Below are positions 40,082 through 40,225 of a DNA stretch of 47,536 bases, piece after piece. This DNA is from Hydrogenophaga intermedia (GTDB lineage Bacteria > Pseudomonadota > Gammaproteobacteria > Burkholderiales > Burkholderiaceae_C), in NCBI GenBank assembly GCA_945890705.1, contig CAMDCY010000004.1, positions 1 through 47,536 on the forward strand, written 5' to 3'. Both the position numbers and the translations under genes were made by a program. The notes beneath the pieces were generated by a model that was not told the origin of the DNA, did not search any database, and saw nothing but the letters and a program-made list of their open reading frames with translations. The first letter of the stretch is position 1. Each line of letters begins with the position of its first letter.

Positions 40082-40111
40082 TTGCCTGGGGGTGTGGGGC
40101 TCGGTTAGGAT
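40082..40111 (+). promoter_or_regulatory. Possible sigma-70 promoter for the hemB-hemJ small RNA
   Basis: TTGCCT (40082-40087), an 18-base spacer, then TAGGAT (40106-40111). Predicted start near 40118, right at the first stem. Both boxes are imperfect but the spacing fits. Confidence 0.45.
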
Positions 40112-40117
40112 TTACCC

Positions 40118-40225
40118 CGAACCCGGCTTCTGGGCTGGGTTCCCCGCTTTTCCTCCCTGAGCGGGTGCCTGATTTGTGTGACAGCAAAAAGGCTTCCCAC
40201 CCGACCCTTGCGGTCGGGTTTTTTT
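40118..40225 (+). ncRNA. Candidate small RNA between hemB and hemJ
   Basis: A segment of about 108 bases with a plausible promoter, two stems and an intrinsic terminator. Stem 1 is GAACCC/GGGTTC (40119-40142) with an inner GC pair; stem 2 is CCCGC/GCGGG (40143-40165); an unpaired A-rich stretch (40177-40199, GTGACAGCAAAAAGGC) could be a target- or Hfq-binding site; the terminator is at 40200-40225. It cannot be the hemB leader on the plus strand because hemB runs the other way; it could regulate hemJ downstream by attenuation. A computationally predicted hemB RNA motif has been reported in Burkholderiales, and this may be it. Confidence 0.6.
40200..40225 (+). terminator. Rho-independent terminator upstream of hemJ
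   Basis: CCCGACC (40200-40206), loop CTTGC, GGTCGGG (40212-40218), then seven T residues. It ends 25 bp before the hemJ ATG, so it either ends a small RNA or attenuates hemJ. Confidence 0.88.

Follow-up and report, generated by a model that had tools for sequence, protein, structure and literature searches.

An anti-hemB small RNA between hemB and hemJ of Hydrogenophaga intermedia and its possible relation to engB-side small RNA loci of Beta- and Gammaproteobacteria

The hemB-hemJ gap

The window, by which we mean the whole stretch of 47,536 nucleotides of Hydrogenophaga intermedia that was analysed (contig CAMDCY010000004.1), carries hemB on the minus strand at 39039-40040, recognised from its open reading frame and protein, and hemJ on the plus strand at 40251-40679, an open reading frame whose gene name was taken over from the preliminary description and not from a family-library test. 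The gap between these divergent genes encodes, on the plus strand, an ordinary member of the known Rfam family RF02837 (anti-hemB). RF02837 matched positions 40141-40227 over its full model (1-81) with 69 bits compared to a gathering score of 49.5, and it was the only Rfam family that exceeded its own cut-off anywhere in the window. The divergent hemB by which members of this family are recognised is in place upstream, and at E <= 0.001 the genome itself, which is 82.67% complete, contained one copy. The covariance model R1, which is described below, gave 63.2 bits at 40112-40228. The preliminary description had proposed a terminator-ended free small RNA at 40118-40225 related to a conserved RNA found near hemB, and had suggested a search with the Rfam model; the match bears this out and the coordinates are retained here. 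Its relation to the hemB RNA therefore stands, but the restriction of that RNA to Burkholderiales was too narrow because relatives are found across Gammaproteobacteria.

The counterpart in B. cenocepacia, ncS04, is reported to be 105 nt long, its start having been mapped by dRNA-seq and its 3' end verified by RACE, and to bind Hfq (PMC5688073), and a counterpart has been listed for B. pseudomallei also (PMC3521395). The length of ncS04 fits the predicted transcript of about 108 nt (40118-40225), which would begin with a 5' hairpin, H1, that lies outside the 81-nt Rfam model. The start near 40118 is placed purely by analogy with the length and the mapped ends of ncS04.

Secondary structure and covariation

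When 40118-40225 was folded alone it gave -52 kcal/mol (z = -4.41), a value that none of 200 shuffled sequences equalled. The fold consists of H1 (40119-40142, 10 bp), the seed hairpin H2 (40143-40165, 7 bp), whose loop at 40150-40158, UUCCUCCCU, is the anti-Shine-Dalgarno element, H3 (40167-40193), and an intrinsic terminator (40199-40225) made of a hairpin at 40199-40219 followed by seven U. Terminator-like sites numbered three in a region of 701 nt where 0.8 were expected. Thus, the intrinsic terminator of the preliminary description is present, but the two stems it had counted are three hairpins in addition to the terminator, and the stretch GCAAAAAGG, which it had described as A-rich and unpaired, for the most part forms the 3' arm of H3.

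Two alignments were used. A1 contains 75 of 82 distinct RNAs, seven being omitted because their 3' end was wrongly set or short. In these 75 betaproteobacterial sequences the stem pairs of H2 and its CCUCCCUGAG loop were nearly unchanging, and H2 is therefore uninformative on pairing there; RNAalifold on A1 returned only H2 and part of H3, with a covariation term of nearly nil (-0.05). The four-helix structure comes from A2, which was scored differently and contains 41 sequences, 21 from betaproteobacterial and 20 from gammaproteobacterial members. The preliminary description had made its case depend on covariation in the stems, and such covariation was found: in A2, 23 of the 25 counted pairs were changed on both sides (5/5 in H1, 6/7 in H2, 5/5 in H3 and 7/8 in the terminator), and 85.6% of the cells were paired compared to 75.9% after shuffling. 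The covariation score was 0.332 compared to 0.171 for shuffled alignments, none of 500 shuffles being as high, and structures slid along the alignment reached at most 0.119, although the structure has an advantage over these slid controls because A2 served both to derive it and to count its pairs. H1 is new relative to the Rfam model, and the preliminary description had not recognised it as belonging to a covarying structure. Of 160 distinct betaproteobacterial loci, 117 had a hairpin with 6 bp or more in the corresponding position, which compares to a mean of 28.4 and a maximum of 41 in shuffles and to 31 in the stretch just upstream, and among these betaproteobacterial loci 80 different stems of at least 5 bp were seen.

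Promoters of the RNA

Upstream of the window RNA a -35-like hexamer, TTGCCT (40082-40087), and a -10-like hexamer, TAGGAT (40106-40111), each agreeing with the consensus in 4 of 6 positions, are separated by a spacer of 18 and stand where the promoters of the relatives stand, so that they may form its promoter. The promoter-like pair of the preliminary description is thus present at the expected site, but it is weak, and a scan for pairs with at least 9 of 12 consensus positions and a spacer of 16-18 did not return it since it has 8 of 12. In many relatives a different motif, which a single window could not have revealed to the preliminary description, was found just upstream of H1, in which a GGAAC-type element is followed after a spacer of 15-19 by a TCNNA-type element. 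We take this motif to be a sigmaE (RpoE-type) promoter, the binding being predicted. It was present in 50 of 160 betaproteobacterial loci, compared to a mean of 1.9 and a maximum of 6 in shuffles and to one in the reverse-complement control. Outside the Burkholderia and Comamonadaceae clades it was present in 47 of 60 betaproteobacterial loci, that is, in 26/29 from other families of the order, 17/26 from MAGs without a genus name or hemJ and 4/5 from other named organisms. It was found in only 1/20 loci of the own family, 0/36 of named Comamonadaceae, 1/37 of the Burkholderia group and 1/7 of MAGs with hemJ, and no such motif lies upstream of the window RNA.

In gammaproteobacterial loci outside the training set of R1 the motif was found in 27 of 40 copies and 22 of 30 loci, compared to 0/40 in the reverse complement and 0.3 in shuffles; a downstream control gave 4/40, probably because of tandem copies. 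RpoE itself exceeded the NCBIfam cut-off in all 30 genomes tested, and the same motif was found upstream of rpoE in 12 of 27 readable loci (three of the 30 could not be read) where 0.86 were expected, with none in the own genome or in that of its genus mate. The predicted sigmaE-type promoter in most other lineages appears to be new, as no paper on a sigmaE-driven, hemB-linked small RNA of Betaproteobacteria was found in the open-licence PMC literature. It leads to the testable prediction that in most Betaproteobacteria the anti-hemB RNA would be an envelope-stress small RNA.

Distribution and neighbouring genes

The numbers of genomes matched by RF02837 at E <= 0.001 were 167 of 200 in the own family, 154 of 200 in the order and 69 of 143 in the class, of which 157, 133 and 7, respectively, exceeded the cut-off. 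At the same threshold 3 of 14 control genomes also gave matches, all of them under the cut-off, and weak RF02837 matches therefore need other support. With R1, the covariance model built from A2, matches at E <= 0.001 were obtained in 151 of 274 Gammaproteobacteria (class) genomes. Since only 7 of the 143 class-sample genomes pass the RF02837 cut-off, the Rfam model could be widened. Loci L284 (G565:C33:13148-13908) and L285 (G656:C3:217554-218301) each contain the RNA four times in tandem, and most of these copies have their own sigmaE-type motif. A MAG titled Klebsiella pneumoniae (CAMDRJ010000108.1) carries the RNA together with a betaproteobacterial-type hemB (74% to that of the window), and its label is probably wrong. 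In another locus, L214, a c-di-GMP-I riboswitch (2973-3057, minus strand, 77.9 bits) precedes the RNA by about 450 nt, and both are encoded on one strand.

In betaproteobacterial loci outside the Comamonadaceae type, the arrangement is hemB (minus), the RNA (plus), engB (minus) and a cytochrome c gene (plus); in 30 loci sampled from the order hemB was found in 26, engB in 27, the cytochrome c gene in 28 and hemJ in none. Over 119 named loci, hemB was upstream in 103, engB was found in 66 and hemJ in 44, and some of the 16 loci lacking hemB are cut by the end of the locus. A strict loop pattern used for the synteny counts retained 21 copies from 30 own-family loci, in which hemJ was downstream in 8 and none of these neighbours was found within the 3-kb loci in 12. 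In four loci, three titled Hydrogenophaga and one from a betaproteobacterial MAG (L065, L076, L117 and L132), the distance between hemB and the RNA exceeds that elsewhere by about 1.4 kb, as if by an insertion, and in three loci from Tepidimonas and Tepidicella (L089, L107 and L133) the RNA has no adjoining hemB, hemJ or engB. The first 20 gammaproteobacterial loci had polA upstream in 14, engB in 15 and hemB in none. Among 30 gammaproteobacterial loci outside the R1 training set, made up of 14 from among the best-scoring R1 loci and 16 picked by hand from the list, engB or polA was within 2.5 kb in 25 (33 of 40 copies), but several of these loci belong to the genus or family of a training genome and are therefore not independent. 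Left out of this set were L298 (weak and with no listed place), L295 (identical to L270), L302 (from the genome of L258) and L218 (from a training genome).

Alternative explanations

The position of hemJ could mean that the RNA is a 5' leader, as the preliminary description had considered, so that transcription from 40118 would enter hemJ unless the terminator forms. The distance allows this: across 52 loci the gap from the U run to hemJ is 18-110 nt (median 63), and in the window it is about 25-26 nt. However, hemJ has a promoter motif of its own. In the window a -10-like box, TACACT, is present at 40239-40244, and such a box (TANNNT, in most cases TACACT or TAAACT) has its end 4-8 nt ahead of the start codon of hemJ in 47 of 51 distinct upstream sequences, compared to a mean of 1.4 and a maximum of 5 in shuffles. 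The four exceptions (L002, L003, L126 and L163) are Thiomonas-like, and three of them show by eye an AGGAG-type sequence before the start. The box predicts a leaderless hemJ mRNA that would be made from its own promoter downstream of the terminator of the small RNA. Moreover, the four helices are preserved in loci where the RNA is followed by engB, which is convergent and takes the downstream place in 27 of the 30 order loci in which hemJ was never found, and in the predicted fold of 40118-40225 no competing antiterminator is seen. We therefore consider attenuation of hemJ very unlikely and do not favour it.

The neighbouring genes suggest two other explanations. The name of the family implies an antisense regulator of hemB that would pair with the leader of hemB mRNA, and this draws on the divergent arrangement, on the start of hemB being 78 nt from that of the RNA, on the frequency with which hemB is the upstream gene in named loci, and on hemB being a predicted target, in a published report (PMC6321483), of the Hfq-bound Bc7 of B. 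cenocepacia, which may or may not be the counterpart of the window RNA. Against it, the RNA does not overlap the hemB coding sequence, and gammaproteobacterial members adjoin polA in 14 of 20 loci and hemB in none; as hemB is not kept as a neighbour there, this explanation was rejected as highly improbable. The other is control by heme or iron, a link that the preliminary description had left open and for which only the presence of hemB and hemJ speaks. These genes are not kept outside Betaproteobacteria, hemB being one of several neighbours that include polA and engB in gammaproteobacterial loci, and ncS04 is reported to show no significant change when a chelator made iron scarce, nor under six further conditions (PMC5688073). 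It was therefore rejected as the least probable of these three explanations, and the window RNA probably has little to do with heme.

The seed loop and the proposed mechanism

The invariant element of the H2 loop is CCUCCCU. C- or CU-rich loops of small RNAs elsewhere in proteobacteria bind G-rich ribosome-binding sites, from which we infer translational repression in trans with the help of Hfq, and an hfq gene is present in the own genome. A perfect complement of the 9-nt loop, AGGGAGGAA, was found in that genome, at its 82.67% completeness, only within the small RNA gene itself, and the reversed control word AAGGAGGGA was absent from it. On both strands of the window GGAGG was rare, with 35 occurrences compared to 87 expected from a first-order Markov model, and GGGAGG occurred 7 times compared to 24 expected from the same model. 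With no perfect loop complement and few GGAGG, Shine-Dalgarno pairing in this organism must use shorter matches, and the targets, if they are Shine-Dalgarno-like, may pair with fewer bases and may perhaps be few.

The explanation that we favour, and hold to be probable, is that of a free, trans-acting small RNA that blocks Shine-Dalgarno sequences and comes from an ancient sigmaE-controlled engB locus, now under a housekeeping promoter. According to this explanation, the anti-hemB RNA would start near 40118 from its own promoter, end at about 40225 at the terminator and fold into three hairpins and the terminator, the exposed CCUCCCU loop of H2 would pair with G-rich ribosome-binding sites of other mRNAs, and Hfq would help this pairing, so that translation of the target mRNAs would be blocked. 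By descent the RNA would belong to a small RNA locus beside engB that extends over Beta- and Gammaproteobacteria and has a sigmaE-type promoter in most lineages, with ErsA of Pseudomonas as one relative that has been characterised. A housekeeping-like promoter would have been substituted for the sigmaE one in the lineages of Burkholderia and Comamonadaceae, by which stress control would presumably have been lost, and in Comamonadaceae-type loci hemJ would have taken the place of engB. Evidence against this explanation includes the low consensus match of the window promoter (8 of 12), the lack of a sigmaE motif there, and the finding in the paper on sX13 that this RNA, a relative in position, is Hfq-independent (PMC3771888).

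Comparison with known small RNAs

The window RNA resembles the anti-hemB RNAs of RF02837 and ncS04 in sequence, in H2, H3 and the terminator, and in its site beside hemB. It is unlike them in that the Rfam model lacks H1, that hemJ lies downstream in the window and that Burkholderia has another promoter. Loops rich in C and U that could pair with ribosome-binding sites have been described for NmsR/NgncR_162-163 of Neisseria, for S17 of Bordetella and for double-hairpin RNAs (PMC5362039, PMC9973317, PMC11722255, PMC5688073); the loops are alike but the loci are not, and the Neisseria siblings are likened here by their description. Membership of RF02278 (toxic/double-hairpin small RNA) was rejected since that model gave 16.2 bits on the window compared to a gathering score of 50.

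sX13 of Xanthomonas (RF02232) is encoded at the polA locus, as the gammaproteobacterial members are, and is reported to act through C-rich loops on G-rich motifs near start codons, but unlike what is proposed here it is reported to do so independently of Hfq (PMC3771888). Only one locus, L258, matched the sX13 model, and there all matches were below their cut-offs: 45.4 bits for anti-hemB, 40.5 for the alphaproteobacterial ar14 (cut-off 58.8) and 35.8 for sX13 (cut-off 50). The authors of the sX13 study asked in 2013 if the polA locus encodes small RNAs elsewhere (PMC3771888). The loci described here supply an answer for many families of Gammaproteobacteria, and to these they add the form of Betaproteobacteria that is linked to hemB. 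In E. coli K-12 the place between polA and yihA (engB) is held by Spot 42 (spf, RF00021), which is alike in this position but has no H2. R1 gave Spot 42 only 15.8 bits, chiefly from the terminator, RF02837 did not match it at E up to 10, and RF00021 was absent among the matches at E up to 10 in the stretch 39900-40400 of the window; Spot 42 was therefore not supported as a sequence homologue.

ErsA (RF01719) is reported to be sigma22-dependent and helped by Hfq, to act on the ribosome-binding sites of algC (PMC8395346, PMC6321483), and to consist of SL1, an unstructured U-rich domain, SL2 and SL3 (PMC8575079). In a Pseudomonadaceae-like family, recognised by an OprF match of 260.6 bits, R1 matched at E <= 0.001 in 17 of 30 genomes and in neither of two genomes of the genus that gave the OprF match. 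Ten engB loci of this family were searched, and Rfam found Pseudomon-1/ErsA in seven of them (90-134 bits). R1 scored 24.0-29.6 bits at these seven ErsA sites and at most 13.2 elsewhere in the 36 kb, and these loci had engB in 7/7, polA in 6/7 and the sigmaE-type motif in 7/7. Among nine loci of the best R1 matches in the family, five had ErsA over the cut-off, one was matched only in part (33.1 bits) and the other three had no Rfam family at E <= 0.01. Three Pseudomonadaceae-like loci (L234, L235 and L240) carry an ErsA-like RNA below the Rfam cut-off with a GAAC...GTCAGTA promoter seen by eye. ErsA and the anti-hemB family are thus alike in the engB-linked place, the strand, a terminator with a C-rich loop and, in the loci examined, the sigmaE-type promoter. 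They are unlike in that ErsA shows by eye no CCUCCCU hairpin H2, and the window RNA has no sigmaE motif. RF01719 was absent among the matches at E up to 10 in 39900-40400, the engB and the RpoE-type (sigma22) promoter by which that family is recognised are both missing there, and hemJ takes the place of engB, as in Comamonadaceae-type loci.

The likeness to ErsA and Spot 42 could be convergence, if the gap between polA and engB has repeatedly gained unrelated C-rich small RNAs. The low R1 scores, 24-30 bits for ErsA and 15.8 for Spot 42, agree with this, and terminators supply much of them. On the other hand, the ErsA loci share strand, flanking genes and a sigmaE-type promoter, and no other sequence in the same 36 kb exceeded 13.2 bits; convergence is therefore conceivable but rather doubtful. 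We lean, if by a little, to common descent, with anti-hemB and ErsA, in all likelihood also sX13 and possibly Spot 42, as branches of one engB-side small RNA locus. The ancestor of Beta- and Gammaproteobacteria would have had this locus already, under sigmaE and encoding a CCUCCCU seed hairpin; in the lineage of the window the RNA would have escaped sigmaE, lost engB and become a housekeeping translational repressor. The reach of the family, the locus shared with ErsA, the extra 5' hairpin and the predicted promoter of hemJ are new. Rfam holds these engB-locus RNAs as separate narrow families, and the sigmaE-type promoter together with the link to the ErsA locus bears on the function of anti-hemB.
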